NCBI RefSeq assembly: GCF_964355755.1
Contig: NC_092672.1
Location: forward strand, 18,906,501-18,970,500
Length of the DNA stretch: 64,000 nucleotides
Reading direction: 5' to 3'
Source of the DNA: Antedon mediterranea
Taxonomy: Eukaryota; Echinodermata; Crinoidea; Comatulida; Antedonidae
Part shown: positions 17,200-62,390 of the stretch, in pieces
How positions within the stretch are numbered: the first letter of the stretch is position 1
How the letters are laid out: every line of letters begins with the position of its first letter
Position numbers and translations under genes: made by a program
The notes under the pieces: generated by a model
The model's input: the letters and a program-made list of their open reading frames with translations, nothing else
Database searches by the model: none
Told to the model about the DNA's origin: nothing

Positions 17200-20100
17200 T
17201 CATAACTGTTCTGTTGACATTGATATCTTGCATAACCTTGCTAACATCCCAGCAAGTTGAAGTAATGAGTTCATTCCTTCTGTTATCTTCATATTAGTGA
17301 ATCCAATTTCCTATGAAGCAAAAATGTAAAGGTTCTCATAATTATATGAATTTAAGTTGTATACTTTAGATAATTTCGACACATTGTGCCCATTGCTTAG
17401 TAATGAGACTACCCATATTGACGGCCTGTTTAAAGTACAAAAACATGCTTTACATATTTGTGCAGGGCAATCTTATAGATCACATTTCAAACTAGAATGG
17501 CACTCCGAGAGTGCATACTGTACCTCCGCCTACTGTAAAATTCTCCTACATGAATTTTCACCGGAAAAATGTTTTTTTTTATTTTCGTGTCTTAATAATG
17601 CTGTTTTTAAAAATCAAAAAACCTGTACATTAAATAAAATTAGGTTTTAAAATTACAAATCACAAAGTATAACTCTTGCCTCTTGTACAAAAATAAAGTG
17701 TTTTGGAGAAGTAGTTCCTCGTGAAAATGTAATTTCAGTTTACTTTAAGACTGCTTACCAGCTTTTAAAAATTGTCTCCTATTTTTTAACAAAACAGGTC
17801 TGAAAATAATACTAGAAAGTGGTCCAGAATTGGGACCTTGGTCCAGATTGCCTCTAAAGTTTAATGGAGTGGTATCTATCTGTATTTTTATTTTGGTAAA
17901 GATCTTGCAATAACTTTTTGAGTAATCTTGCTAACAAACAAACAGACAGACAAACACATGCGATCGACTGCATACACTTTGTTTAACGTTCGAAACATTT
18001 ATGATTTGAATAAGCTACAGATAGCTTTGCTTATGTTTCGCTTATCTAAAAATAGTTTGCCTTCTCATGAATGTTCTCCATTTTAAATAAACTGCTGAAG
18101 GTCATAAACATAACAGTAGTATTTGGATAAATAATTTGATTTCTGATAAAGTGTGGTTCCCACTAGCGACGCAACACAAGGACGTAACGCAACACAAGTG
18201 AATTGACCAATCACAAGCGATGGCTTATTCGCTTGTGATTGCTAACTGTCTATAACTTCGCTTGTCATTGGTTAAAACGTTTGCCTTGCGTTACGTTCTA
18301 GTGGGAACCAAGCTTCAGTTGTTATTTAAGCCCCGTTGTAAATTTTTATGTTCGACCTAAGAGCTGGAGTGTTATTTCACACAAGTTAAAAAGTAAATTT
18401 ACAGTCTCCAATTTTAAACACAATTACAGAAAGCATTTAGTCTCTGAATGGGGGCGTGGATAAGTTGAGGTTGGAACTGTTAGGTATTTCAAGTAAACAA
18501 TTTACTTCTGCTTACAATACTAGTTTACTTGAATTGAAGTTGAATCAAATTCCTTCATACTGATAACATACAAAAATATATAAATAAAGAATGGTTTAGA
18601 TTATTTTACAATATTTTAAATAAAGAAAATACAAACCTTGATAAATTCTAGTTTTAAAAACTCAGCCATATTGTGAGTTTTGCAGACACGAAAAATATTG
18701 CCTATGATGTCCTCTGATGCATAGCCTAAATGGTAGAAGTGAGCCATTATGGTGTAGGCCTCATCAATGTTGCCTGCTATGCAATGATCTAACATGTCTC
18801 GTATGGCAGACGGATGAGGCTCATCACAAACCTGTTATAATAATGAACACACATGATTGAATTAAAAGTGTTCTGAGGTAGACATAATTACATGTCAAGT
18901 AAGTAATTCTTGGGTGGGACTCGAACCCACCAGCTCTAGATCACTAGCCTGGGACTCGAATCCACCAGCTCTAGATCACTAGCCTGGGACTCAAACCCAC
19001 TAGCTCTATATCACTAGCCTGGCGTTTGTAAATCTAGACCACCGAGTTTGCACTGATGTCTAGGGGTTAGATTCGAGCCCAAGTAAAGCTTGCCTTGCGT
19101 TTTTTTGCGTGAAATTAAACTGATTTGATTTCCCGTAGCGTTGTTTGCAGCACTGTTACGTCGTCGGTTCCCACTTGTGATTACGCAATACAACACTTTG
19201 CATCAATACGTCGCTGCATTATGTTGCAGTCTAGTGGGAATCACGCTTTAGCAGCAGGTACTGCACTAACAGAATTGCAATTGTGGTCAACTACTGTGGA
19301 GTTTGGAGCTTGCAGCACGGAGTCAGATGTTTTTTCCTACTCTCATGTAATAAGTACATTGAGAACACTCGCCAACAATTTTTGGTGAAAGTAAATAACT
19401 ATTATGTGAAATTAAAATGGCATATTCAACGAAAACATTAAAAAAATAGGGGGACAATATATCTTTAATGGTAATAAAATTGGTAATTATTGTAATGATA
19501 TTTTATTGCAAATTAAATGATTAAATGTTATTATTGTTGAAAGTTATACTTTACATGTATATCTATTTTATCATGAAACTTAAAAACACAAAAGAGTAAC
19601 AACATACATACCTTAAATACATTTTCTGGACTTACATGCCCAAATCCTGAGTGGGTTGACTGGAGGTTGTTAAGTGCCTACAACAAATAAATATACATAA
19701 AATACTGCAAGATTTCATTGTTAACAGATGTAATGGGTTATTTAGGTTCTATTTCAAATAGAGAAGACACACAAAACTAAACAACTATTAATTCCAGCAT
19801 ACAATACAATACCAAATTCTTTTCAAAGAAAATGCAATTTCTCTTTCTTTCTGACAAAGAAAAATTATAAACTGTCAGATATTTAAAATTACAGTCTCTC
19901 ATCTCAGCTAAGCAGAACAATGCCTAAAAACTGTGTTGAGTTACTCCATCTTGGTAAGGTCCATGTAATACACCAATGTGTGATAGGGTATATATATATT
20001 CCACCTTTAATGCTCATTTTAGAGTGATAGGCCAAGGTCGGTTTATCCAGGTAATCTAGGCATAAAGTAAAGGTTAATTTTTACAATATTCTCTTTCACT

Positions 20101-23100
20101 TGATATTAAATTATGGAAATATGATTGCTCTACACTATACCTGTCTCATATCACCTTGTGATGTAAAGATGATAGCTTCCAATCCCTCATCTGTATACGA
20201 TATATTCTCTGCCTCACATACCTCTAATAATCGACTGAGGAGCTGAGCATCTGTAAGCTTTGAGTAACGCAGAACAGCACACCTGGATTGAATTGGCTCA
20301 ATAATTTTATCAGAAGTATTACAGGCTAGCGCAAAGCGTGTTGTTTTGGAGTAGATCTCCATGGTACGTCTAAGTGCTTGTTGAGCGCCATCTGTCATAC
20401 TGCAAATAATATTAATGTTTATTTTATTCCAATGATGGTGTTACATTGAATTTCTTGGTTTTTGAATTTGCAGTTTAAGTTGACATTTGTTTTTAATATA
20501 CTGTAAGTAATGTGTGAAGTGTATGATATGGATGCAATTTAAAGATGAAATCAAGGATTTATGGATTCTGAATGGAACCAGAAACCAAACACAGTGAAAT
20601 AACAATGGTAACAGGTATAAACAATTACTAAATATTAAACTTGTTCAACTTTTCCTGTGCAATTTACAATTGTGCAAGAAAAGCTGTTGCACAATTTAAA
20701 GTAATATTCCCAGTAGTCTAGTTGACAATTTACTCTAGAGAGAGACACAAGAGAACATCCACAGTATAAATGACTTAAGGCTGTAGGCCTATAGGCTTTT
20801 TGGTTATTTCTTTGACTAATTTACCTATCAGCTTCATCGAGAATAACAATCTTTTGTCTTCCTATTGGTAAAGTCACTTTCTTCTGTGCAAACATTTTGA
20901 TTTTGTTTCTTACAACATCAATACCTCTGAAAACAAAACAAAATGGTAGTAGTGTCATTAATGTTTCTGGAGGAAAAAAAAACCAATATTCTTTGACCAA
21001 CACCTTATTACCAGCCTAAATTAACCTAGCCCATCATTTGTGAAAAAATATAATTCTTGCAAGATACATCAAATGATATAAAGTATGAAGATAATTGGAA
21101 TGGATTTTGGTAACCTTGTTTAAAAATTTTTTTTTAATGCATTATTCAACTCACACTTTTCTGTGACTATTATTGAGTGGTTTTTTTTGTTTTTTGTTTT
21201 TTCGGTGGTGCTGCTCAAGTCAGCCTTTGCATTAGCAAATGTTAGTAACATGTGTTTTAACCTTTTACCAATTTTAGTTTGTGTCATCGTTTTGTGTATT
21301 GGATTAAAAAATAGCCCAAGGGGTGTACCACGCCATCGCATTACTTTCACTACAATAACAATTTATGGATGAAATCATAATAACATCCGCTCCATGTAGA
21401 GTAACCCTGGCCCGATCTAATCTCCATCCACTGATAGTACCTAACCTAAGTCCATTCATCTAAGCTTCATGACAGATATATGTTGTTATTATTATTATTA
21501 AATATTATTATTGTGTATGGATGGTTAAATAATGTGACTTTTTTAGTGATAATGTTATTTATTGTATTTACAGTACTCTATTATGAAAATGTATATGCAC
21601 AAGAAAAACAAACATGCTACCTATCATTGGATGCATTCAGTTCCAGAACACCTTCCTTGTAGGCTACTCCTAACAATTTTCGGGCCAAACACAGAATGCT
21701 TGTGGTTTTACCAGTTCCAGGAGGACCCTAGAAAAGATCAACAATCAAATTAACACAGAATGCTTGTGGTTTTACCAGTTCCAGGAGGACCCTAGAAAAG
21801 ATCAACAATTAAATTAACACAGAATGCTTGTGGTTTTACCAGTTCCAGGAGGACCCTAGAAAAGATCAACAATCAAATTAACACAGAATGCTTGTGGTTT
21901 TACCAGTTCTAGGAGGACCCTAGAAAAGATCAACAATCAAATTAACATTGGTGCTTTGTCAATTCAATAACAAGGTATATACTATTTTGCAAGGTTTTTT
22001 ATAGAATAATATAAAAACAAGATCGATTCAAACTACAGTATAACTTCTTTATTACTGATTTTTTTTTTTGACAAAGAAAAATGAATGATAAAACCAAGAT
22101 CCATAATAACATAAAATGCGGTAATGCATGCTATTTATTGGAATATATTGCCAATGTATTAGCATGCATATAATTACAAAAGCATGTATCGTTACAAATG
22201 CTGGATCATACAGTATCTCCATGACAAGCACATAAGTTGCGAAAAAGATTGTGTACAAATTGATTAGGAAAATGTCCTGCACACATGGTTTTGCACTGTT
22301 CTGTAACCCGTCACCTACCAAACACTCTCTACAAATTTCAAACAGTTAATAACCTTGTTCTATTCTTGTTTGTGTATTGTCCTCCACATATGGCATTATA
22401 TAGTATGTCCAGTATCATAGGCAAATTCTGTAATACAGCGTCACATATGTATCACATGTGGCAGCTGTACAAATTTACAGCATGTGTCTGGTAGAGTATT
22501 TAGTGCTAACTTTTAACGGTGTGTGACCGAAACGGCCGCCAATATTTTCTATGGGACACCGCCGCAGCTACAACAAGCCAATTGGTGTATTATGAACGTA
22601 CATTAAAGCCTATGAAACCAACCAATATATGTTTAAGAATAAAATCTAAGAATAAACATATTTTTTTAGTTACGTTTCTATTAAAATAATGTTTATAGTC
22701 ATTTACCATTCAAAGTGCAATATAAATTTTATTAATGTATTAATAAAACAAATAATGTACGTCAATTATTGTAAAGTTAAATTTAGGCAAAACAAATATG
22801 AATGTACTGTAATAATATTTATATATATATGTTATGTAGTAAAGCTATTGTTATTTATTAGGTCCATAGTGAATTCAATAACATATGAAATTGTGTAATA
22901 ATATTCAAACATGCTATATATGTATTAATATTATGCCAATAAAGCATTTTAAATAAAGTTGCGTCCTATTGTTTTACTATTATGTGTATCAACAACACCC
23001 TTCGCGGGGCTAATTGTTTTTAATTTATGTTACTAGATGTTAGCGCATTAACCGTGCCTAGTCATATTATCTGTGGAGCTCCGCGTATCGGCGTCATTTA

Positions 23101-28922: not shown

Positions 28923-31900
28923 ATGAGTGGAAGACTAGGAGATTTGAATGAAAAACAAAGTCAGCGTTTGCAACAGGTACGTCATGAAATGAATTAAATA
29001 ACAGCTGGCAAAAATGACAACAAAGTGGTTTTAATTTAGGACCTCAAGTTGTATTTATGGCTTGACTTCAACTTCTATTTACTATATCTGAACCACTTTG
29101 CACATTTTACAATTACAATTTCCTCTTGTAATTTCCAAATAGTCCCTCATAATTTGAAATAAATTCCGCAATAACATTAATTAACAGAACTTACAATGTT
29201 TGTGTACTTTAAACACCTAACTGCTGCATGCATAATATTTTTAAAATATTTGTTTATGTACTTTTATTTTCAGTTTAAAGAAAATGTTAAAGATGTGATG
29301 AAAGCGAAACATGATGATCATACATTGCTTCGATTTTTGAGAGGTAAGATAATTTTAAAACCATCTAAGATTATTAAATTATATTAAAAATGTAGAGGTT
29401 TGCTCATGAAGTGGCTGAAAACCTAAAATAAGGATCAAATATCAAAAGGCTTTTATTAATTATTAAACCAACAGGCACAGAACAAATTCTAAACTGCCTC
29501 ATATTATTAATTTGTAACGATAAAGATACGGAAGTCTGTGACAATGAGAAAAGCCGCCCCAAACGAGATTCAAACCTGAAAAATTCTGCTTGAAATGCAA
29601 ATGTCCTAAACATTAGACCACTGGGACTTTCATGGTATTGTTCAAATTTGATTTTAGTAAGATATAAAATATTAATTTTATTGATTAAAATGTTTTTTTT
29701 ATTTTAGCAAGAAGTTTTGATTTAAAAGGTTCAGAGAAAATGTTTAGGAAAGTAAGTTCTGCATTTTGTAATTGACAATAATTGTATTTTTCATTATATT
29801 CATTTTTTGAGTTATATTATATACTGTTTAATTTAATAAATGTATAACTCGTCAGCATTCAATAAGTATTGCCAAACTTTATCAGATTTAAACCCTGTCT
29901 CCGCCCTATAATGTTGAGCAAAGTGCAGCGATTAACTATGGAGTATACAATGTAAATTGTATCTGTATTGACATAAAAGCTATCTATTGATTAAGTGTAT
30001 CCACAATTTGCAACCAGCAATGATAAAGAGAGTTATTATCATTTAAATTTTTTATTTAGAAATACATTGTCATTTTAATTTACCATAATCTGTTGTTAAA
30101 TAAAATGATATGATTTCTTTTCACTAGTAGATTTTGTTTATTTAAGTCTGGAACAGAATCCAATGTTTACTTACTTACTTACTTACTAGTTGAGTGTTTC
30201 CTAAAATTCTACAGAGTACTAGCCTAAAATGCCTCCGCAGTAATCCAACTTTACATTTGGTAATCTTTTACTCACTCTAAGATACAGACAGCACAACTAC
30301 TGTAGCACACCCATACTCACGCTAAGATACAGACAGCACAACTACTGTAGCACACCCTTACTCACTCTAAGATACAGACAGCACAACTACTGTAGCACAC
30401 CCATACTCACTCTAAGATACAGACAGCACAACTACTGTAGCACACCCATACTCACTCTAAGATACAGACAGCACAACTACTGTAGCACACCCATACTCAC
30501 TCTAAGATACAGACAGTACAACTACTGTAGCACACCCATACTCACTCTAAGATACAGACAGTACAACTACTGTAGCACACCCATACTCACTCTAAGATAC
30601 AGACAGCACAACTACTGTAGCACACCCATACTCACTCTAAGATACAGACAGCACAACTACTGTAGCACACCCATACTCACTCTAAGATACAGACAGCACA
30701 ACTACTGTAGCACACCCATACTCACTCTAAGATACAGACAGTACAACTACTGTAGCACACCCATACTCACTCTAAGATACAGACAGTACAACTGCTGTAG
30801 CACACCCATACTCACTCTAAGATACAGACAGCACAACTACTGTAGCACACCCATACTCACTCTAAGATACAGACAGCACAACTACTGTAGCACACCCTTA
30901 CTCACTCTAAGATACAGACAGCACAACTACTGTAGCACACCCATACTCACTCTAAGATACAGACAGCACAACTACTGTAGCACACCCATACTCACTCTAA
31001 GATACAGACAGCACAACTACTGTAGCACACCCATACTCACTCTAAGATACAGACAGCACAACTACTGTAGCACACCCATACTCACTCTAAGATACAGACA
31101 GTACAACTACTGTAGCACACCCATACTCACTCTAAGATACAGACAGCACAACTACTATAGCACACCCATACTCACTCTAAGATACAGACAGCACAACTAC
31201 TGTAGCACACCCATACTCACTCTAAGATACAGACAGTACAACTGCTGTAGCACACCCATACTCACTCTAAGATACAGACAGCACAACTACTGTAGCACAC
31301 CCATACTCACTCTAAGATACAGACAGCACAACTACTATAGCACACCCATACTCACTCTAAGATACAGACAGTACAACTACTGTAGCACACCCATACTCAC
31401 TCTAAGATACAGACAGTACAACTACTGTAGCACACCCATACTCACTCTAAGATACAGACAGCACAACTACTGTAGCACACCCATACTCACTCTAAGATAC
31501 AGACAGCACAACTACTGTAGCACACCCATACTCACTCTAAGATACAGACAGCACAACTACTATAGCACACCCATACTCACTCTAAGATACAGACAGTACA
31601 ACTACTGTAGCACACCCATACTCACTCTAAGATACAGACAGTACAACTACTGTAGCACACCCATACTCACTCTAAGATACAGACAGTACAACTACTGTAG
31701 CACACCCATACTCACTCTAAGATACAGACAGTACAACTACTGTAGCACACCCATACTCACTCTAAGATACAGACAGTACAACTACTGTAGCACACCCATA
31801 CTCACTCTAAGATACAGACAGTACAACTACTGTAGCACACCCATACTCACTCTAAGATACAGACAGCACAACTACTGTAGCACACCCATGAATGTGTTGA

Positions 31901-46800: not shown

Positions 46801-49800
46801 CCACTGATACCACAGCATTGTCATTTTTTTCAGTGATTTGCCTTTGATTTATATATATATATATACATCAAAGGCACAGATATATATATATATATATCCA
46901 AAGGCAATATATAAATTAATGAGTTTACGATATACAAAACTTACAAATGAAAAACAAAATCACGAGGTTGAATATTGATACGAACAGATACAACACGTCT
47001 AACTTCTATTAGTGTTGGTTTAAGTGGAGTGAGTCAGCGTGGAGTGAGTCAGCTAAAATCCGATTAAATATCCCGGATAGACTAATGATTTAACAAAAAA
47101 ATGTTCAATACAAAATTCAATGACAAGAAAGAGATTGAGGTATCAGAACCATCATGGAACTATATTCAAAATCAAATAAATTATAAAAAAATGATATTAC
47201 ATGAGGACCCAAAGTTAGTTTTATTATATAGCGCACATTTCTATGATATGTCATAGAATAGGCCCTAATCAGCAGCGCTTTACAATCATACATTGGTTGA
47301 AACATGGTGGAAATAAATAAGTCTTACTTATTTTCCTCTATGATTAAAAAAAAAGTCTTTAATTCAGCAAATTATTTCAGATTTTGTTCCAGCAACGGAA
47401 AACGAGAGGTCAGTCAATTGATTTTGCTTAATTGAGGAATTGTCAGTTTGTCAGCTAGTAGGCCTAATATTTGTTATAATGGAGGAGTACTGGCAGTTAT
47501 GTACAGTAATTCTGAAAAGAACTTTTGAGCTTCTCGACGTTGCGATCAATTGCTCTCGTCGATCGTTGAGGCATTTTGATCACACAACAAACTCACAGAT
47601 GGAAATTATTTTCTTATCTGGGATCTATGATGTTTTACAAAATGTGATTAATGAATGTTGTTTGCTATTGTCTTAGGAAAAAAGAAATAAATAAATGGCA
47701 AGTTGCAGTTCTTATCTTATTGTGTCTTGGAGTGATTGCTGGTGTCATTATTGGAACGTTATTTGCACGTGAATGGGAATCATACGAATACAAACATGCT
47801 GCGGTTGCTTCAGACAATCCACAGTGCTCAACGATAGGCAAGTAAGTCGTGATCATAACGATCAAATCGTAGTGGCACCACTAACATACATGTTCTTATA
47901 CACTGCGTGTGTGACATAGTTCAATGTACGGTGTTACATGTAAAAACCATTTAAACAATATATAATACTCGAGAATCTGTCATCGAATTTTGAGACGGCT
48001 CACTGATTTATCCGGAAAAATGGCATGTGCCTAAAAGACAAACTCATAACATTTCTCTTCAAAATTTAAAATTTGTTATTATTATTCTTTATTTATATTT
48101 ATTTTTTTATTAGTATTTAAATTTTTCTTCATAGTATTAAAAACGGTGAACGTAATATCGTTTCTTTAAAGTTTCCCAGAAAATGAACAGACTTAACGTC
48201 AACAGTTAATAGTATTTGCAGAGGACACATATCATACTAACGTAAAGTCTATTTTTTTTACATAGGGATATATTAAAACAAGGGGGGAATGCAGTTGACG
48301 CAGCAATCTCAACACTGTTATGTGTAGGACTCCACAATGCGCATAGTGCTGGCATTGGGGGTGGTAGTTTCATGATCATTGCAGACAAGAAGAAAGAAGA
48401 CCAGTCTTACAGAATGTACGCATTTGACTTCCGTGAAGAAGCGCCAGGACAAGCAAACCAAAACATGTTTGTCAACGATACAACAGATGCTTCAGTTTAT
48501 GGTAAGGATCAGTTTAACAATGACAACATAATGTTTTTATTTTAAACGATAATCTTCGTAAATTACCTTTTTATTATACATATAAGCTTCTTATCTTTAA
48601 ACAATCCATGTTTATTATAACTTTAATTTCCATTTCAAATTTCCATTAAGTCTATTATATGCATTTTTAAATTGAACTAGATCTTTATGATTTAAATAAC
48701 TTGAGATTCAACTTTTCGTTAAGTTATGTGAACCAAAGTCTGCAGATTCATTCATTCATTACTCATATCATATTTTCGTATTTAAATCGATCCATTTTAA
48801 TCGAACAATCTACACAATTATAAATAATAATCAAATATCGTAATTGTAATCAAATATTTTAGGTGGCCTAGCTATTGGTGTTCCTGGTGAAGTAAATGGC
48901 TATTGGACTGTACACAAGAAGCATGGTCGTCTGCCGTGGAAGAATTTATTTGTTCCTAATATTGAATTAGCTCGAAATGGTTTCACCGTCAATAAGGCCC
49001 TTGCAAATGCTATCAGAGGCAAAAAAGATATCATAGAGGAAGATCCTAGCCTAAGGTAGGTATACAGTAGGAGTAAGAAGGCAACTACTGATAATTGTAT
49101 TAATAGAATAGTAAATGTTACAGAGTAGTTGTTGGTAAGTTAGCATATCATTAAACTATTAAGATCCTAGTCTGAGGTAGGTGGAGGATTCATGTTAATG
49201 TTCCTTAATAAAATAATAAATGTTATAGACCTATAGTATTGTTGGCAAATTGGCATGCCGTAAGATGGAATTATTATTGTGACATCAACAAGAAAAAATC
49301 ATTGTTTTTTTTTTATTGTAATGGAAAAAGTTCACGGTGAAAACCAATACCACAGGTCGGTTTATTCTACGACCTCATCTGTAATTATCACATTTACAAA
49401 GTGTAGACCTCGTATCTTTTACAATAATTAACCATTACCGAAGCTTGTCTACAAACAATCAGGACTTATCTCTATTAGTCTTGTAAACTGATAACCTTAG
49501 ACCCCAAATTATCTCGGTAAGTACTTGTACTAGTCTATCATAGACCAACTTAATCCAAGTGGTAGATTGAGGCTCCTCAGTGTGAAAACAAATCGATTTG
49601 CTAAATCCTTTATTCCCTCCGATATCATCCAGTACAACCATGGAGTAATTACTCCATGGTACAACAGAAAGTCAAGAAGATAATTTTATCTTGTAATTTT
49701 TTAGATGTTTTTATATGAATAGTTTTATGCTATATTTGTTTTTATTGTGTTTTCTTTGTTATTATGATGAGCAATGAATTTCCTTTTTGAGGATCAATAA

Positions 49801-52800
49801 AAGTTATCTTATCTTATCTTATCTTAGCCAGACACGTAACAGGCAATGAACATATTGTACAAATAAAAAAACAACTAGCAGTAACCAGTGCATGGTCTTT
49901 TCTGCCTTAATATGTGGCCTATACTTTGCATGTATAATAAAAGCGCACTCTGATAAAAGTACTTTGACAAATTATCAAAATAAAAAAAACTTGTAGGCCT
50001 ATCAAGAATCAATTTCGGAACTGTTTTATGGCCATTAATTTTTGTATGCACTGTCCCTTCACTTTAAAAATGAGATTAATACTGGATATGGAACTTTAGA
50101 CTTTACTTTTTACTGTTCAGACTTTACGAAAATAAAAGACGCTGAACAAAAATTGTGCTGTGTGAATTAGTTAGATGATGCGCTCAAACACTAACGAAAG
50201 TATAAAATATCAAACTATATTTCGTTTCGTGTTTTTCGTGGTGTATTCATTATTTGATTTTCATGTTCAACAATGTATCTAACAATTTGGAATTGTTTTG
50301 TTTGTTTGTGTGTGTGTTTTTTTCCATTTCCATTTTTTGTTATTTCAATGGTTTTAATATTTTGCAATTTTTGTTGGTTTGGGTGATTTTGTATTCTAGA
50401 AATAGCCTGTGCTCCACACGGTCTTGTCTACCTTAATAATCATTCGAATGGGATGGTTAAGTATTAGGCCTATAAAAGCGCAATACTGGATGTTGCACTT
50501 TGTGCTGTGTGAATATTAATTAGGGTACGCATCATCATCAGTTGGCAGATTAAAACATGTTAAAGATAAAATATAAATATGAATTAAGTTATAGAATTAA
50601 GAATATTGGAATAATAAAACGGACTTCAAAATCAACACAAAATGTGCACTCACTACTCGAAATTAGATGATGCGCTCGTCAGACAAAAACTTTTATATCT
50701 GATATTTTGTGAAAACACGACTTCGGAATCATCATTATATTTGTATGTGTGTGTGCTTTTTGTTAACATTAGTAGCATTAATATATAGATGACCTTAATA
50801 TTCACAAACAAAACATAAATTTTCATAGTGAAATCTAAAATTTAGCAAATTTACATTTCATGTTCATTTGTGTGACCGATTCCTTTCCATGTTCATTTTG
50901 TTTGACCGATTCCTTTCCATGTTCATTTGTGCGATCGATTGATTTCCATTTCCATGCTCATTTGTGTGACAGATTCCTTTCCATGTTCATTTTGTTTGAC
51001 CGATTCCTTTCCATGTTCATTTGTGCGATCGATTCATTTCTGTGCTTTATTTTGATGTTTTCATTGGTATAATGTGATTGTTTTCAGCGTTCATTTGTAT
51101 GAATGTGGTTCTTTTCAGTGTTTATTTGTGTTTTGTGTTTTTTGTTTTTACTATCCTGTGTTATATTAAATTAGTTCTATCTCAATGTTCACTGTAAGAT
51201 TGTATTACATCATCACTGTTAATTTATTAAAAAGGTTAGTTTATGTGCATTTGCTATAAATTCCTATTTTGACATTCTTTTTACAGTGAAGTGTTTGTGC
51301 ACCCCGATGGACGATTGTTTGAGGAAGGAGATACTATGTACCGATTGAAATTAGCAAGGACGTACGAGAGGATTGCAAACGAAGGAGGGGATGAATTTTA
51401 CCAAGGAGAATTAGCTGAAGACATTGTAAAAGATATTAATGATAGAGGTATTGCTCGTATTTGTAGGTTTTAATGGCTCTGAAAAAACTTTCACTCATTT
51501 TGCTTTTATTTATTGTAGGCGCCATTTCCATAGCTCTTTGACAAAACAAGATAAAAAAATCCATCAAAAACAAACGGAACAGAAAACAGCAAAAACAATC
51601 CAGGTCCCCTGTATATGCTACGACCAGGCATTTGAACACGGACACTTGTTTCTTTAAAGAATTGAGTGTTCATCACCAGTTCATCTTTTGATGAAATGTA
51701 ATATATGGAAGATGGTGTGATACTTTTGAAACATTCAACTAGATCCCACATAAAATGTTACGCGTGCTCAACCTGTTATTCATTTACCGCGTAGGTGGCA
51801 AAACACCAAATTTTACCAAAGTTATAAATAATTCGTATTTATTTGTTTCAGATGGAATTATCACCTTAGAGGATTTGAATAACTACTCATGTAAAGAACG
51901 AAAACCTATATCAATCACCATCACTACGACAAATGAAGAGAAGTCACTTCGAATGTTTTCTCTGCCACCACCGTCAAGTGGAGCAGTCATGGCTTTGATA
52001 CTAAATATTCTGGATGGTTAGTGCAATCAATTGACCTAAATTAATTAAGGAACCTTAGTGTTTTATGATATGATTTTGAAACACATTTCCCTGTTTGGAT
52101 GATTGTTTGCTACAGTTAGCTACACAAGTCTTTAGTTAATCAACTTTAATCATATTTAAATCAAAATACACGAAAACAAATTATCAAAGCACAAATTAAT
52201 ATAAATATTTTACTTCTAACTTTAGCATTTTCAAACTCCTTTTAACTTTACCTTATTATATGTCTTACTTTGTCTCTTGTGTGTGCCTCCTGTAGCCCAA
52301 CCCTTAGTTTGTCTCTTGTGTGTGCCTCCTGTAGCCCAACCCTTGTTTGTCTCTTGTGTGTGCCTCCTGTATCCCAACCCTTGTTTGTCTCGTGTGTGTG
52401 CCTCCTGTAGCCCAACCCTTGTTTGTCTCGTGTGTGTGCCTCCTGTAGCCCAACCCTTGTTTGTCTCGTGTGTGTGCCTCCTGTAGCCCAACCCTTAGTT
52501 TGTCTCTTGTGTGTGCCTCCTGTAGCCCAACCCTTGTTTGTCTCTTGTGTGTGCCTCCTGTATCCCAACCCTTGTTTGTCTCGTGTGTGTGCCTCCTGTA
52601 GCCCAACCCTTGTTTGTCTCGTGTGTGTGCCTCCTGTAGCCCAACCCTTGTTTGTCTCTTGTGTGTGCCTCCTGTAGCCCAACCCTTGTTTGTCTCTTGT
52701 GTGTGCCTCCTGTAGCCCAACCCTTGTTTGTCTCGTGTGTGTGCCTCCTGTAGCCCAACCCTTGTTTGTCTCGTGTGTGTGCCTCCTGTAGCCCAACCCT

Positions 52801-55800
52801 TGTTTGTCTCGTGTGTGTGCCCCTGTAGCCCAACCCTTGTTTGTCTCGTGTGTGTGCCTCCTGTAGCCCAACCCTTGTTTGTCTCGTGTGTGTGCCTCCT
52901 GTAGCCCAACCCTTGTTTGTCTCGTGTGTGTGCCTCCTGTAGCCCAACCCTTGTTTGTCTCTTGTGTGTGCCTCCTGTAGCCCAACCCTTGTTTGTCTCT
53001 TGTGTGTGCCTCCTGTAGCCCAACCCTTGTTTGTCTCGTGTGTGTGCCTCCTGTAGCCCAACCCTTGTTTGTCTCGTGTGTGTGCCTCCTGTAGCCCAAC
53101 CCTTGTTTGTCTCGTGTGTGTGCCCCTGTAGCCCAACCCTTGTTTGTCTCGTGTGTGTGCCTCCTGTAGCCCAACCCTTGTTTGTCTCGTGTGTGTGCCT
53201 CCTGTAGCCCAACCCTTGTTTGTCTCGTGTGTGTGCCTCCTGTAGCCCAACCCTTGTTTGTCTCGTGTGTGAGTGTGCCTCCTGTAGCCCAACCCTTGTT
53301 TGTCTCTTGTGTGTGCCTCCTGTAGCCCAACCCTTGTTTGTCTCGTGTGTGTGCCTCCTGTAGCCCAACCCTTGTTTGTCTCGTGTATGTGCCTCCTGTA
53401 GCCCAACCCTTGTTTGTCTCGTGTATGTGCCTCCTGTAGCCCAACCCTTGTTTGTCTCTTGTGTGTGCCTCCTGTAGCCCAACCCTTGTTTGTCTCTTGT
53501 GTGTGCTTCCTGTAGCCCAACCCTTGTTTGTCTCGTGTGTGTGCCTCCTGTAGCCCAACCCGTGTTTGTCTCGTGTGTGTGCCTCCTGTAGCCCAACCCT
53601 TGTTTGTCTCTTGTGTGTGCCTCCTGTAGCCCAACCCTTGTTTGTCTCTTGTGTGTGCTTCCTGTAGCCCAACCCTTGTTTGTCTCGTGTGTGTGCCTCC
53701 TGTAGGCCAACCCTTGTTTGTCTCGTGTGTGTGCCTCCTGTAGCCCAACCCTTGTTTGTCTCTTGTGTGTGCCTCCTGTAGCCCAACCCTTGTTTGTCTC
53801 TGTCCATAAGTTTGATTCTAATTTTTTTTTCTGATGGAACCAGTGCTAAAGTTTCAGACACAACGGAAACCCGCTGTATAATCTTTATTTTATGTATTAT
53901 ATTTATTATTTAAGAATACTCTGTGTGTATAAACTGAATAACTTTAATACATAGCCTGAGTATTCCTGAATGATATCGACTGCATTAATTGGCAGCTGAT
54001 ATCTTCTTCTCTTTTTTACTTGAGTGATTATGCTGAGCAACATACTTTTATTTAGTGAGTAAACAGTAGGCCAATGCTTATTGGTACGTTCTCGAGGAGC
54101 CAAATCGACAACTTAGTCAGATTAGCCCAATTATTATACAAACATATCATAATAAACATTTTAATCAAATATCAAATATTTAACTTGGCACTAAATATAT
54201 TTGAAGGACGTTTTCCCAATAAATTTGTATTAGGTCAAGTGAAACGACGTTACGTTCACTCCACCCGTAGGTCTATATCTGTCTGAACTTTATCCTTCCG
54301 ACATTATTGTTTATTAGAGGGCTATCGCTTTACAAACCAAATCTAATTTGGCAGAAAGGCCATTCATTTTATTAAACTTATTTCTAGGATCATTCTCATC
54401 TGGTTGTTTTGGAACTAAGTCCACAGATACAAACTATATATTTTTTTAAATACGTCTAGTCTGATTATTAAACAAAACCAAATTGAACTTTGTCAAATTA
54501 GATTTATTAATAACAACACTAAGCTAACAATCTACAGATCATATTGCTTTTAAGATAACAAAAAATGGTTGATAAAGTACTTACATACTTACTTTATAGT
54601 GCAATTAAGAAAAATAGTTTTTTAAAAGCTAAATATATTATTCCCTTTACCTCCTATATTAACTTTTACATGTTATTATTTTCATTACTAAATATGATAC
54701 AAAACCAAAGAGTTTATCAAGATTATCATAAGAAATTTGCGAATCTTACTAACCTTATCTCCGATAATGATGTGAAAGATAAATAAAAATATTAAAAATA
54801 AAGATTGCAGACAACCATTATTACAGACAACCAACTTCACCGGGACCATATGAATTAGGCCAACGTATTAAATAAATAAATAAATAAATAAACAATGTAT
54901 TTTCTCCACCGTTTTATTCAGAGTCACTCATGTAGGCTTATAATGTTCTTTTCATCGGTTATTCTATCTTTATCACGTTACTTGTTTCCACATCTTGATT
55001 CAAATGACAAATATAAATTAAATAAGATAGTAAAGGGTTTGATTTCTGTCAAATATATTGATAATTTCAACATTTATTACAAAATCCCACACACATCTGC
55101 TCCATAGAGATATCCTAGTAACAGATCAGGTAGAGTAGGCCTAAGGCTTGCACAAAAAAAACAAAAGACTTTAAGAATTTATTTTTAGTCGCGTGCAACG
55201 CGACTCTACAGCTCACTATGTCGGTCGGTTGGTTGGTTGGTTGGTCGGTCGGTAAACACTAACTTGTATATGACCTTGTCTTGATATCAGTTTAATCTCA
55301 TAAATTTCTAAGGGCATAAATCATCATATGGCAATACAATTACGTGCGTAGCGCATGTAACGCATGCGTACGCGCTCTTAAAATTTTCAAAATTGTCAAA
55401 ATTTATTTTCGATGAAATAAGAGTACGTTTCAGGCAGTTTTAAGCGTTAAAAAAATTGCCATGCGTGCGCAGATGTTTGCATGCGCACTGCGCGTTAAAT
55501 GTTAATACGCACTCTTTTTGCCCGATTTCTGTTTTCTTAACTCACTTTTCAACTCGACATTACGTTATACGAGCACGTCAAAAGTCACAGACTACGCACG
55601 TGTAAATTAAAAAAAATATAAATGTTTTTAAACATTTTCAACATTTTTAAACATGTTCAGCAATTTCGGTCGATTGGTCGGTCGGTAAACACTAACTTGA
55701 GAACGCGACTGCAGCCATCTATATGGCCTTGTTATATAATAGTGTAAACATCTTCAACTCAAATTTCACTAGATTTTTTTTTCATGTTGTTGTCCTCTTG

Positions 55801-58800
55801 GTTTTTAGCAATACAGCATGTTTCTCAGACAATTGATGTAAGTTACGGTAGCTTGAGAATGTGTAGTAAGTGTATGCCGTATCGTATCGTATACTTACCT
55901 TACCTTCAGCATCCCCTATCGTATACTTACCTTACCTTTAGCATCCCCTATCGTATATTTACCTTACCTTTAGCATCCCCTATCGTTTACTTACCTTACC
56001 TTTAGCATCCCCTATCGTATACTTACTTTACCTTCAGCATCCCCTATCGTATACTTACCTTACCTTTAGCATCCCCTATCGTATATTTACCTTACCTTCA
56101 GCATCCCCTATCGTATACTTACCTTACCTTTAGCATCCCCTATCGTATACTTACCTTACCTTCAGCATCCCCTATCGTATACTTACCTTACCTTTAGCAT
56201 CCCCTATCGTATACTTACCTTACCTTTAGCATCCCCTATCGTATACTTACCTTACCTTTAGCATCCCCTATCATATACTTACCTTACCTTCAGCATCCCC
56301 TATCGTATACTTACCTTACCTTCAGCATCCCCTATCGTATACTTACCTTACCTTTAGCATCCCCTATCGTATACTTACCTTACCTTTAGCATCCCCTATC
56401 GTATACTTACCTTACCTTTAGCATCCCCTATCGTATATTTACCTTACCTTTAGCATCCCCTATCGTATACTTACCTTACCTTTAGCATCCCCTATCGTAT
56501 ACTTACCTTACCTTTAGCATCCCCTATCGTATATTTACCTTACCTTTAGCATCCCCTATCGTATACTTACCTTACCTTTAGCATCCCCTATCGTATACTT
56601 ACCTTACCTTTAGCATCCCCTATCGTATATTTACCTTACCTTTAGCATCCCCTACCGTATACTTACCTTACCTTTAGCATCCCCTATCGTATACTTACCT
56701 TACCTTCAGCATCCCCTATCGTATACTTACCTTACCTTCAGCATCCCCTATCGTATACTTACCTTACCTTTAGCATCCCCTATCGTATACTTACCTTACC
56801 TTTAGCATCCCCTATCGTATACTTACCTTACCTTCAGCATCCCCTATCGTATACTTACCTTACCTTTAGCATCCCCTATCGTATACTTACCTTACCTTTA
56901 GCATCCCCTGTCTAGTCGGATGTGGCCCTCAAACCTTTGCCATTTCTTTCTGTTCAGTGCTGTCCTGACCAAAGTTGTACCTGTATAAGATATGATGTCG
57001 TCCCTCCATCTTCGTGTTTGCCTTCCTCTTCTTATTTTTCTTATTCTCGGCTGCCATTCTATCAATCTTTTTTGGTCACATCTGTTGTCTTCTATTCTTG
57101 CTATATGACCTGCTGTATCGTATAGTATATTAGTTATTATTTAAGGCCATTATGCAAGTTCAGGATAATTTAAAATGGAAATGACCATGTATTATAAAAG
57201 ATAATCTTTGTAGGTGTAATTTGTTGGATTAATTCACTGAACCTGATGTGATTGTGTAAAATATAAACGAGAACCAAATTGTGAAAAGTATTTATTAGGT
57301 CAGACTAATGTCTTGGGTATCAACCTCAAATTTAAAGCCCGTACAAACTCTCTTGAACTCGATATACGAAAATTGTCGTGGTCAGCTGAATTTACTGGCA
57401 TTTGTAAATTTTTCGATGATAATAAAACAAGGCCATATACCTTCTCAGTACATAACACCCGACGCCAATACCTCTCTATACTCACCAACCTCCACCCTTT
57501 TCAATAACACCCCACACACACTTTATAAACAAATTCTTCCCAGGTCAAATTTCAATTCAAGAGGGGCCTGGTTTAAGTACGTTGTAAACAGTGTAAATGA
57601 ATAGGTGTCATATAGGCTGATAATTAAAATATCTAATTTTGATAATGCGGCCCCCAGCCTTCTTTCTCTTATCACCATCCCAGTCACAATTAACAAACCT
57701 TAACTCCTCCCCTGGACAGATAAAATGTAGTAATTTTTCCTAATACAATTCCAATCATGTTATACTTCATTACGCCAGTATTTACACCCCTCCTCCTCCC
57801 TCCCAACACACCCCAGATACAGGGTGATTTGTTTAAGACGTTTCCAGTACAAATTATGTTAGCCATCACGCCCAACCAATATTCCCTCAGTGGCAGTTTT
57901 CAAATATAGTACAGTTTCGGTCATGGTGATAGGCCTACATTCCCACCCAAACTCCCAGCCCCTTCCCAGGGATAATTAAAATACTTCATACCACAATTCT
58001 GGTCAATTTGATAGCCTACTACTAGCCTAAGCAAAATCCCCACTATCCTCTCAACCCTAACTCCCACACCCTATTTCCCCACCCCCTCTCCCACCAAATC
58101 CTCTGACCTTTTGAAATGTAGTTTAAAACCTTTCCGGTACAATTTCGGTCTTTTTGATACCCCATATGTATGGTTACGTACAGAAACAGGAATTTGTATA
58201 CCGAACAAACATCGAAAGTGGGGAAAAGTGTGCCATTTTGGCCCCTAACTTGGATCCTATATGACAGATGATGTTTAAATATAGTTTAGAACTTTCGCGG
58301 TACAAATATGACTGTGTTAAGCTCTGTGTACACAATCAAACTTTTTGCGACAAAAAAATATGATATACCTATTGGACATGATGACGTTATGACACTATCA
58401 TATTTGGGCACATTTTTCTGTCAAACTAGTTTGATAATACGAATTCCAGCAGTACTGTGTACTATGGAGTGCGGAAATGATTTTGTCGCAGCCAAAGATA
58501 AACCCTTGATAGAATACATTGGTCCAATTCACACACATGTTATTTCTTTTTAAATAAATTGAATTAGAGATTCCAGATTTCAATATTATGCAAAATGTTG
58601 ATTTTATTTGTATTGATTTTGGAGGAATATTATGAATGAAAGAATATTCTTTAGTCCATCGTTTTATACAACTAATTAACGTTTTCATATTCTAGAATAC
58701 AAATTTAATGAAGACAGTTTGGAAGATAAGGTGGAAATATATCATCACATTGTAGAAGCATTTAAATTTGCATACGCTAAGCGATCAGCACTTGGAGATG

Positions 58801-61800
58801 AGGATTATGTTGACGTTGTCGAGGTATATATTTACATTTAGTTTCTGTTGCATAAATATATCCTCAGAATACGGTATTCATACCGTATTTTTAATCCCCC
58901 GTTTCTGCTAGAAGTACTATCTTGAGTGGTCTTGTATCGTTGGCGATGTTGTAGCATAGTCTGCTTTTATTTTTTATTGACTGACTTATTGTATATAAAA
59001 AACGCCTCAAATTAAACTGGCTTATAGAAGTTGTCAAAATAATGAAATATAGATGATTTCTACATTTCACTAACTTTAACTTCCTTTTTTAGATAAGTCT
59101 TATAGTAAAAAAACAATAAATTTATAATTTTTCTAATTTTAGCTCGTTAAGAATATGACTTCAGACATATATGCAAAAGAGTTGAAAAGTAAGATAACAT
59201 ACTACACGCACAACACGTCATACTATGGACCTTTATTTGCAAATAATGAAGATTTCGGGACGGCGCATCTATCTGTTGTGGATGAAGATGGCATGGCGGT
59301 GTCAGTGACGAGTACAATTAACACACAGTAAGACGATTTTGATACTAATAGTAATACTAAAACAAAGTAACGCTCACTCTAACGGCCAGTATTGGTTCAT
59401 CAAATACATTTTACAAAATCAAAACGTAGCCATGGTAAAGAAATAAGTTTAATTGCACAAATAAAGTTACACTAAACATGAAAGAAGGTCACCTTAGAAA
59501 ACAAGGCAATCTAACAACATGACGCTGAGCTCACCCAGATCAAAGGGTTTACCTCTAGTTTCGAATCACATTCCGCCCCCTAAACGCTTGACTGAATTTT
59601 GATTGGCCATTTGGCTTCCTCAAATGTTTAGTAATTCACCAAGGGTACCAAAAACGGTACCCTTAATCCACAATCTTCGCTTTAATCCAACACAGAGAAA
59701 TCAGTTTAAGCAAATAGAACCACCAAAAGTGGCCAACGGAAAATTATTTTAAATTAAAAAAAAGTCAATAAAGCTGGAATAAACAAAATAATATACAAAA
59801 TTGTTCCCATCTCTTCACATCGATAGACAATATTGACTATTCTCGTTACGTTCATGTTTCCACTAATATTTACAAATGTATCTTCCTTTTGAATTTGGTG
59901 GTTTATTTACATATTAACAAAATAAATTATAATGAAATTATGCAAATAAAAGCGATACTTTTAATACCACCATAAAGTTGTCCCGAACTTGCAAGTTGCA
60001 AGTTACTTATATAGCTTCTATATGTTTGTTATAAGTTTTGGCTCTAAAGTTCGTGGGACACGAACAGGAATCATATTCAACAACGAGATGGATGATTTTT
60101 CAACACCTGGTACACGGAACACGTTTGGTGTACCTGCCTCACCATCAAATTTTATCAAGCCTGGAAAACGGCCTATGTCATCTATGTGCCCATCCATATT
60201 TATTGATGAGGAGGAAAAAGTGCGTTTGATAATAGGAGCGTCGGGAGGTACAAGGATAACTACTGGAACTTCATTGGTAAGTCTGTCAGGATGCCACATG
60301 TGTTGTGGTGGTGGTCCGTTACTTATGGGTAAGTCTGTCAGGATGCCACATGTGTTGTGGTGGTGGTCCGTTACTTATGGGTACGTCTGTCAGGATGCCA
60401 CTTGTGTTGTGGTGGTGGTCCGTTACTTATTGGTAAGTCTGTCAGGATGCCACTTGTGTTGTGGTGGTGGTCCGTTACTTATGGGTACATCAGTTAGAAT
60501 GCCACTTGTGTTGTGGTGGTGATCCGTTACTTATTGGTAAGTCTGTCAGGATCCCACTTGTGTTGTGGTAGTGGTCCGTTACTTATTGGTAAGTCTGTCA
60601 GGATACCACATGTGTTGTGGTGGTGATCCATTACTTATTGGTAAATCTGTCAGGATGCCACTTGTGTTGTGGTGGTGATCTGTTACTTATTTGGTAAGTC
60701 TGTCAGGATCCCACTTGTGTTGTAGTGGTGATCCTTTACTTATTGGTAAGTCTGTCAGGATGCCACATGTGTTGTGGTGGTGGTCCGTTACTTATGGGTA
60801 AGTCTGTCGGGATGCCACTTGTGTTGTGGTGGTGATCTGTTACTTATTGGTAAGTCTGTCAGGATCCCACTTGTGTTGTGGTGGTGGTCCGTTACTTATT
60901 GGTAAGTCTGTCAGGATACCACATGTGTTGTGGTGGTGATCCATTACTTATTGGTAAATCTGTCAGGATGCCACTTGTGTTGTGGTGGTGATCCTTTACT
61001 TATTGGTAAGTCTGTCAGGATGCCACATGTGTTGTGGTGGTGGTCCGTTACTTATGGGTAAGTCTGTCGGGATGCCACTTGTGTTGTGGTGGTGATCCGT
61101 TACTTATCTGTAAGTCTGTCGGGATGTCACTTGTGTTGAGGTTGTGGTCCGTTAAGTCGGCATAACAAGTTACTGACTTATTTCCACTGGGGTGCCACAT
61201 AAAAATCAGAAAATGTGAGTAGTTACATTTTTAAAAGGTAAATGATTAAAAACCGAGACTTTAAACATATAAATATACACAAGAAACATTATATGTTTGC
61301 GGTTCTGCTGACATAAATGATTGTCACCGAGTTTATTGGTAGTGTGTTTTTTTGCCTTTAGTTTTAGAACTCTTCTGATATTTGATTTCGATCTTAGGCG
61401 ACAATGAATACTTTGTGGTTTGGCAAAAACATTGAAAATGCAATAAAAGAACCAAGAATCCACCACCAACTGGTGCCGATCTACATTGCATACGAGAAGG
61501 AATTCAGCAAGGTAAATGCGGTAATTCTTAAACTAGATATCAGTGCATTGTAATATTATTAATGTTAGTTTTATATAAACTATATTTATTCACGAGACTG
61601 AAGTATACAGCACAAATCGGTTAATCAACATCGATTGTTTTTACCCAATTCGTGATATTACAAAAAAATTATAATTAGGCCTAATAAAACATTATATAAA
61701 TACAAAAATAAGAGAATAAAAACTTGAACCCATTCTTTCGGACAACCCTTATTTATTTATAACAACATCTCTGAGTTGTGACAGTTCCTCGTGGTTTAAA

Positions 61801-62198
61801 AGTGACTCTTCCTGTATGAACTAGGCCGCCAATTCAGCGAGACAGTAAATTAACCCTCAACTCCTTGCAACTTCAAAACACAAGAAATGGAGGTTACTTT
61901 AACAAACGCATAAATGATTCATCACTATGTTTTAAACGGTAGCAAATAATTACGGTGTTAGGAAAAGGTAATTGAGGACGTTTGACTCGTTATTAGGGAT
62001 TACAGATCTATCTATCCTAAATATAAATGTCGATTACAACTTTTTCCACAGGAAATACTCCATGGTCTGGAATCAAGACTACACGAAGTGAAGCAATCCT
62101 CTAGTTCAAGTGTTGTACAAGGAATTAAGAGGAAATCCAACAACTATCTAACTGCTTATTGTGATGATAGGAAGGGAGGAAAACCAGCAGGCTATTAA
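43848..62198 (+). CDS. GGT1: Gamma-glutamyltransferase (glutathione hydrolase), 11 exons
   Basis: Cell-surface Ntn hydrolase that removes the gamma-glutamyl group of extracellular glutathione. Coding exons: 43848-43891, 47677-47841, 48266-48501, 48863-49055, 51287-51447, 51852-52016, 58696-58823, 59143-59327, 60036-60276, 61398-61511, 62052-62198; 1779 nt, 592 aa. A short cytoplasmic start ([10 protein letters not shown]), a type II signal anchor at about 24-45, then the large-subunit signatures [28 protein letters not shown] and GVPGEVNGY. Self-cleavage is expected before T404 in [12 protein letters not shown], which becomes the catalytic threonine of the small subunit. Substrate-site motifs follow: [20 protein letters not shown], and the C-terminal GGKPAGY typical of GGTs. 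All junctions keep phase. Vertebrate paralogues (GGT1, GGT5) cannot be separated by eye. Intron 1 (3.8 kb) holds retroelements; introns 4, 6 and 9 carry tandem repeats, two of them built on the gene's own splice donors. Confidence 0.96.
44540..44990 (+). repeat. tRNA-Glu-derived repeat, tandem copy B (GGT intron 1)
   Basis: Starts with the shared spacer (gtgctgttccgccgtacccc), a leader (gaacaataccatgaaa), then a damaged tRNA-like sequence at 44616-44677 that has lost part of the anticodon and T arms, then the body, the spacer again, and a second tRNA 3' half (caagcagaaggtccgggttc, 44900-44941) with its TTTTT and body. The tRNA parts recur at about 285 bp, so this is a tandem dimer of the unit seen at 41130-41560. 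Confidence 0.75.
45030..46800 (+). mobile_element. Penelope-like element, degenerate (GGT intron 1)
   Basis: Sense-oriented retroelement remnant. RT pieces in order: [10 protein letters not shown]-like and [11 protein letters not shown] (45080-45170, frame-shifted), [19 protein letters not shown] (45270-45330), catalytic [20 protein letters not shown] (from 45400), then [20 protein letters not shown] followed by thumb and linker sequence to 46092. After a stop comes the GIY-YIG endonuclease region: [13 protein letters not shown], then [20 protein letters not shown] and a C-terminal [10 protein letters not shown]. The order RT then GIY-YIG is diagnostic of Penelope-like elements. Several stops and frameshifts make it non-functional. 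A hammerhead-like motif lies in the 3' part and AT repeats follow (46850-46910). Confidence 0.85.
46701..46727 (+). ncRNA. Hammerhead ribozyme-like core in the Penelope-like element
   Basis: CTGATGA (46701-46707), a single A, stem GGGC/GCCC (46709-46712 with 46720-46723) closing a 7-nt loop, then GAAA (46724-46727): the two conserved boxes of a hammerhead around stem II. Penelope-like elements are known to carry hammerhead motifs near their ends. Stem III (gctctgcc) is weak and I could not confirm stem I or the cleavage site, so this may be a decayed copy. Confidence 0.4.
49041..49186. repeat. 121-bp duplication of the GGT exon 4 end and donor
   Basis: The exon 4 end and donor, agatcctagcctaag|gtaggt (donor at 49056), recur as agatcctagtctgag|gtaggt (donor at 49177), offset 121 bp. 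Downstream sequence is also repeated: aatagtaaatgttacagag / aataataaatgttatagac, and ttgttggtaagttagcat / ttgttggcaaattggcat. Two substitutions in the exon-derived part make it older than the RFC2 and exon 9 arrays. Reading past the true donor meets TAG at once (CTA AGG TAG). Confidence 0.85.
49400..49830 (+). mobile_element. LINE 3' terminal fragment with (TTATC)n tail
   Basis: The end ttgaggatcaataaaagtta followed by ttatc repeats (49803-49826) is the usual 3' tail of CR1/Jockey-type LINEs. Upstream lies non-coding 3' UTR-like sequence, including a perfect 24-base palindrome (49637-49660). It lies in GGT intron 4. Confidence 0.5.
50858..51045. repeat. Imperfect higher-order tandem repeat (GGT intron 4)
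   Basis: A ~90-bp block made of three related sub-units (ccatgttcatttgtgtgacc, ccatgttcattttgtttgac, ccatgttcatttgtgcgatc) occurs twice, from about 50859 and 50953. The overlapping open frame is only an effect of the repetition. Confidence 0.75.
52272..53806. repeat. 38-bp minisatellite, ~40 units (GGT intron 6)
   Basis: Unit tgtttgtctcgtgtgtgtgc-ctcctgtagcccaaccct, 38 bp, about 40 copies, with variants tctctt/tctcgt, gtatgt/gtgtgt and two units shortened to gcccctg. Because 38 is not a multiple of three and no minus-strand stop occurs in the unit, all three minus frames stay open for hundreds of codons (the longest 537, repeating [12 protein letters not shown]). These are artefacts, not genes. 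On the sense strand every unit ends its pyrimidine-rich part with cctcctgtag, acceptor-like. Confidence 0.96.
54074..54786 (+). pseudogene. Possible LINE C-terminal remnant (GGT intron 6)
   Basis: A plus-strand frame at 54074-54286 reads [20 protein letters not shown] then [10 protein letters not shown], reminiscent of the region near the end of CR1/Jockey ORF2 proteins (kYRi..kil...fkal.g..P.yl ... LRSS). The continuation to 54786 is AT-rich and in another frame. Low confidence. Confidence 0.25.
55187..55735. repeat. Unclassified repeat bounded by cgcgact motifs (GGT intron 6)
   Basis: Begins with a perfect hairpin agtcgcgt-gca-acgcgact (55187-55205) and ends near gagaacgcgactgcagcc (about 55698-55715). 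The phrase ggtcggtcggtaaacactaa occurs near both ends (55243 and 55676), flanking ~400 bp. The base composition (many cg dinucleotides such as gtacgcgctc and tgcgcg) differs from its surroundings. Confidence 0.5.
55886..56909. repeat. 32-bp minisatellite, 32 units (GGT intron 6)
   Basis: Unit atcgtatacttaccttacct-t(t/c)agcatcccct, 32 bp, 32 copies (1024 bp). Variation is mostly t/c at one site and tatac/tattt. On the minus strand each unit contains aaggtaaggtaagtatac, a double donor-like sequence; on the transcribed strand these are antisense. Confidence 0.96.
57304..57504 (+). other. Unrecognised open segment in GGT intron 6
   Basis: A 67-codon stretch reads [20 protein letters not shown] then [20 protein letters not shown] and ends at TAA. 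Its composition looks more protein-like than most intronic frames, but I recognise no family. It may be a retroelement fragment or chance. Confidence 0.2.
57700..58313. repeat. Degenerate tandem-like repeat (tttccggtacaattctggtc family)
   Basis: Related phrases recur about every 100-160 bp: tttttcctaatacaattcca (57734), acgtttccagtacaaattat (57838), tagtacagtttcggtcatgg (57907), ttcataccacaattctggtc (57984), acctttccggtacaatttcg (58128), aactttcgcggtacaaatat (58289). C-rich spacers with ctccc lie between. Single copies occur near 11225 and 42485, so it is also dispersed. Confidence 0.5.
60273..61155. repeat. 52-bp minisatellite grown from the GGT exon 9 donor, ~17 units
   Basis: Unit ttggtaagtctgtcaggatg-ccac(a/t)tgtgttgtggtggtggtccgttacttat, 52 bp. 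The first unit begins at the true exon 9 donor (TTG|gtaagt, 60277). Later units start ACTTATTG|gtaagtctg, closely matching the exon end ACTTCATTG|gtaagtctg, so the repeated block spans the exon-intron border. Donor-like sites recur at 60329, 60381 (gtacgt), 60433, 60485 (gtacat), 60537 and so on. The array decays near 61155. Confidence 0.93.
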
Positions 62199-62390
62199 TT
62201 TACGTACCAGTACATTTTTAGAAAACCAATACATTGCCTCATGTGTAGACTTTCGTTAGTAGATAATGTCTTGAAGTGTCAAAGATGCTCTCCAGATGAA
62301 ATAGTGTATCCTGAGATGAGAGCGGGTCATATAAATTGTGTTTTGTAATTATGTTATTTTTCTGTTTCGAAACAAAAGATTGAAAGAATG

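Follow-up and report, generated by a model that had tools for sequence, protein, structure and literature searches.

A 52-bp minisatellite across a GGT splice donor and similar arrays at splice sites of unrelated genes

The GGT gene and the array at its donor

The stretch of DNA analysed here (64,000 nucleotides, referred to as the window; G+C 34%) belongs to a genome of 354 Mb, nearly all of which is contained in 11 large contigs. A profile search of the window located the PF01019 exons of a gamma-glutamyltransferase (GGT) gene at 48264–61514 on the + strand, and the gene also contained both the 21-residue motif and the GASGGT motif of the family. Nine coding GGT exons were found within the window. 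The exon upstream of the array-bearing intron (60036–60276, + strand, PF01019 match) is the seventh of these; the label “exon 9” of the initial annotation is not confirmed. It is followed by an exon at 61398–61511 (+ strand), recognized by its PF01019 match and its join to human GGT1, and by the last exon at 62052–62199 (+ strand), which ends in the stop codon according to the human GGT1 alignment and the frame table. When these three segments (60036–60276, 61398–61511 and 62052–62199) were joined, the C-terminal part of the protein matched PF01019 with E=1e-50 and human GGT1 with E=9e-53, the human alignment being ungapped where the 60276/61398 intron lies. In this alignment, residues 483 and 484 of human GGT1 flank the junction, which lies ten residues past Gly473/Gly474, the pair of glycines forming the oxyanion hole. 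The intron itself (60277–61397, + strand) is a phase-0 GT..AG intron, and its authentic 5′ splice site (TTG/GTAAGT) lies at 60277–60282 (+ strand), as indicated by the gap-free join to human GGT1 and by paralogues with the same intron position.

Further GGT paralogues were found on contigs C11 and C1 in a PF01019 search of the genome. Two of them, L007 and L008, share this phase-0 junction (ANAW/ITLGAVATD.. or ANAW/VTLVTLATD..) with ordinary introns, and inspection of their donors detected no array. The exon end of a third paralogue, L009, is identical to those of L007 and L008, and the copy on C1 is intronless at the junction and reads straight through. The splice coordinates 60276 and 61398 that had been proposed from the letters alone are thus borne out by the ungapped human alignment and by the paralogous introns. 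Because L007 and L008 carry the equivalent intron without an array, the GGT intron predates the array, and a role for the array in creating a new intron was ruled out.

Tandem Repeats Finder (TRF) reported the array at 60268–61154 (+ strand) as 17.0 copies of a 52-bp unit with 90% matches and a score of 1420, far beyond chance. According to the unit table and the pairwise distances, each unit combines approximately 9 nt of the exon end with 43 nt of the intron start (TACTTATTG followed by GTAAGTCTGTCAGGATGCCAC...), and the array constitutes the first 878 bp of the intron. The exonic overlap is short: the GGT exon end shares ATTG (4 nt) with the array copies when aligned ungapped, and ACTT(C)ATTG (9 nt) when a one-base gap is allowed. 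The initial description of about 17 copies of a 52-bp minisatellite whose unit includes this exon end and the donor of a real GGT gene was therefore correct. Seventeen donor-like sites occur from 60277 to 61110 at a spacing of 52 bp, with a single step of 53. The hexamer GTAAGT is kept in 13 of the 17 copies (the remaining four read GTACGT, GTACAT, GTAAAT and GTAAAT), and the + strand of the whole window has 33 GTAAGT, these 13 included.

The pairwise unit distances also revealed a higher-order duplication within the array (60537–61109, + strand), in which the copies at 60537, 60589, 60641, 60746 and 60798 pair with those at 60850, 60902, 60954, 61006 and 61058, respectively, with 0–2 differences per pair; the copy at 60694 has no partner. 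This block duplication shows turnover of the kind expected of a minisatellite. When the 52-bp unit was searched across the 354-Mb genome, no occurrence was detected beyond the GGT locus. Since the unit occurs nowhere else, a dispersed element was rejected as its source.

Arrays at other splice sites and their placement

Six arrays straddling splice sites were found in unrelated genes of this genome, two of which (GGT and RFC2) share the one 64-kb window. The RFC2 array (21688–21947, − strand; TRF and frame table) comprises 4.1 copies of a 64-bp unit over the acceptor TTTTCTAG/GGTCCTCCTGGAACTGG of the P-loop exon; the gene was identified by a match with E=2e-13 and by an RFC C-terminal domain at 18619–18834 (− strand). 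Use of its upstream acceptor copies would yield 13 residues and then a stop. The other four arrays come from loci that had been sampled for unrelated reasons. An ATAD2 acceptor is covered by nine 54-bp copies (L044, 1708–2203) with nine identical acceptors, where the TAG of the acceptor itself becomes an in-frame stop whenever an upstream copy is used. The donor of PSMC5/Rpt6 lies in eight 67-bp copies (L053, 2474–3031, minus orientation) in which 34 nt of the exon end and the donor were duplicated without change. The acceptor of CHD1L lies in five copies of 90 bp (L074, 577–1034), and that of a DEAD-box helicase in three copies of 39 bp (L076, 757–858). The two extra acceptors of the DEAD-box array are both open and would add 13 or 26 residues in HRVGRVARAGR (HRxGR motif). 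In RFC2, ATAD2, CHD1L and PSMC5 the other copies mostly lead to early stops or frame shifts, and in all five genes the coding copy lies nearest to the exon. These arrays speak against the notion that the array is a device special to GGT.

Within the window, ten arrays (period at least 25, approximately three copies upward) account for 11% of the sequence. Placement was assessed on 99 sampled loci that do not overlap one another; they contain 14 arrays, a number small enough for a two-fold excess to remain compatible, and three contacts between an array and an exon end were observed against 2.96 expected under random placement. A contact was scored within 15 bp of the approximate ends of exon hits, the same tolerance was applied to the expectation, and the PSMC5 and DEAD-box arrays, which lie on neighbouring exons, were excluded from both figures. 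One of the three contacts (L071) adjoins an acceptor without spanning it, and none of the sampled P450 loci had an array touching an exon end. Genome-wide, arrays were not enriched in donor hexamers: triple GTAAGT was counted 8066 times against 9861 for the reversed hexamer, a comparison that is crude because it is dominated by long arrays. From the agreement of three contacts with 2.96 and the lack of a triple-GTAAGT excess, the simplest view is that minisatellites arise often and at random places, splice sites among them. The initial suggestion that the donor seeded the array is not supported, considering that genes unrelated to GGT carry such arrays at their donors or acceptors at approximately the rate of random placement.

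Several other features were noted. At L089 (1337–1585), a 67-bp array starts over the final codons, stop codon included, of a DDX6-like gene. Within the window, 36 copies of a 45-bp unit (30269–31889, − strand) each carry a donor-like GTGAGTA, with no neighbouring exon proven; 40 copies of a 38-bp unit (52248–53909, − strand) leave the minus strand open for 440–553 aa in all three frames; and 32 copies of a 32-bp unit containing AAGGTAAGGTAAGTA (55885–57140, − strand) directly follow an open frame resembling the end of a non-LTR retrotransposon, for which a Pfam search returned no match. A 451-aa open frame at 6581–7933 (+ strand) contains several immunoglobulin domains. Elsewhere, an AAA P-loop exon is present in two tandem copies approximately 218 bp apart (L056, C7:26148261–26148643), and the sialyltransferase family GT29 (PF00777) has 150 exon matches in the genome, a large expansion that suggests a deuterostome. 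A search for COX1 gave no hit, and searches for cuticle proteins and GH6 were likewise empty, although both also stayed silent in the controls.

Reading frames and rival explanations

A frame table over the 17 donors showed that donor 60277 leads to the native GGT C-terminus. Conservation of the protein suggests that it would be the donor used in mature GGT mRNA, because it alone yields the conserved protein. The second and third donors shift the frame and lead to early stops. The fourth (60433–60438, + strand) adds 156 nt, or 52 residues, and keeps the frame open; it is the only one of the 16 extra donors that reaches the native C-terminus, all later ones running into a stop. This agrees with the frame arithmetic of the initial annotation, which had gone on to place the insertion close to the GASGGTR active-site motif. 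A functional alternative-splicing module, in which donor 60433 would give GGT a Cys/Gly/Val/Trp-rich insert near the active site, could draw on the unique open frame of 60433 and on a 9-nt donor sequence identical to that of 60277, but, with 5 of the 16 extra donors in frame, one open option among them is no surprise, and the DEAD-box array has two such options. Furthermore, the insert is unlikely to represent real biology, because it would break a stretch behind the active site that is ungapped with respect to human GGT1 (483/484), ten residues past the oxyanion-hole glycines, and no counterpart was found at that position among the GGT paralogues examined. We regard such a module as extremely improbable.

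The occurrence of six splice-site-straddling arrays in unrelated genes, with two in one 64-kb window, might instead point to tandem duplication targeted to splice sites, for example through transcription- or splicing-linked breaks, so that arrays would be born more often at donors and acceptors than in other sequence. However, contacts in the sampled loci match the random expectation, tandem arrays genome-wide lack donor-hexamer enrichment, and arrays also arise away from splice sites, as at the DDX6-like stop codon, which together make targeting improbable. Assemblies are also known to err at tandem arrays, and the copy number at GGT may be inexact. Yet the copies differ from one another by up to 12 positions and follow the ordered pattern of the block duplication, and the array is placed in a chromosome-scale contig; an assembly artefact, or a collapsed or expanded repeat, is very improbable.

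A mirage-type minisatellite and the choice among equal splice sites

In amphioxus, tandem repeats across exon/intron borders, at the donor or the acceptor, have been described as “mirages” in Adh3, troponin C and globins, with comparable structures in PGBD5 and further loci; they leave splicing undisturbed, and the Adh3 units range from 10 to 72 bp (PMC3087553; PMC3902484). The GGT array resembles them in its boundary-spanning unit, in the copied AG/GT splice signals and in its internal homogenisation, seen here as block turnover, and its minisatellite-length unit of 52 bp falls within the Adh3 range. The amphioxus cases differ in that length polymorphism and normal splicing were shown for them, whereas the GGT array is known from one assembled haplotype; moreover, the cases in the literature are cephalochordate, whereas the present genome is probably not that of an amphioxus. 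Its 11 chromosome-scale contigs do not match the karyotypes known for amphioxus, and the 34% G+C of the window and the expansion of GT29 point the same way; a feather star or another echinoderm would be a guess. The Rogers model, in which introns are gained when AG/GT proto-splice sites are duplicated in tandem, likewise involves tandem copies carrying splice signals, but it describes intron gain, and the GGT array does not represent intron gain, since the paralogues share the intron. Ordinary intronic minisatellites are comparable in unit length, copy number and turnover, but the GGT array stands apart in that it overlaps the end of a coding exon together with a splice site. The GGT array is therefore probably a mirage-type minisatellite, a kind already known, and what is new is probably the frequent occurrence of such arrays outside amphioxus.

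Taken as a whole, the array is very probably a neutral minisatellite of the mirage type that was born across an old GGT splice site and whose exon-proximal donor is the one used. The starting point may have been a local tandem duplication, by replication slippage or unequal exchange, of 52 bp that by chance covered the exon end together with the donor, and the array would then have grown into the GGT intron. Donor 60277 would continue to be used, and the near-identical downstream copies would be ignored or rarely chosen. Most likely, exon definition lets splicing pass over the downstream donors, and most mis-spliced mRNAs would be removed by RNA decay owing to their early stops. RNA decay cannot by itself protect against misuse of the copies in general, because the extra acceptors of the DEAD-box array would keep the frame open and add 13 or 26 residues. 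Of the equal sites available, each authentic one (the GGT and PSMC5 donors and the RFC2, ATAD2, CHD1L and DEAD-box acceptors) gives its intron the greatest length. Selection of the nearest partner across the intron would predict the opposite, whereas exon definition predicts what protein conservation appears to imply. Given the amphioxus mirages and the several arrays in unrelated genes, we infer that the repeat grew by chance and is tolerated by splicing, instead of serving as a new device for making proteins, and the GGT array would accordingly be neutral.

By itself, the GGT array is ordinary; its value lies in the class to which it belongs. We would put at about even the chance that splice-site-copying arrays are common in this non-amphioxus lineage (four in 99 exon-centred loci, in addition to two in the window) and that the exon-proximal site wins among competing near-identical donors or acceptors. 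The class supplies genes in which between 3 and 17 splice sites, identical or nearly so, follow one another (donors in some genes, acceptors in others), so that splice-site strength is near constant and only position varies. Such genes would allow exon definition, transcription order and mRNA decay to be told apart as deciders among equal splice sites.
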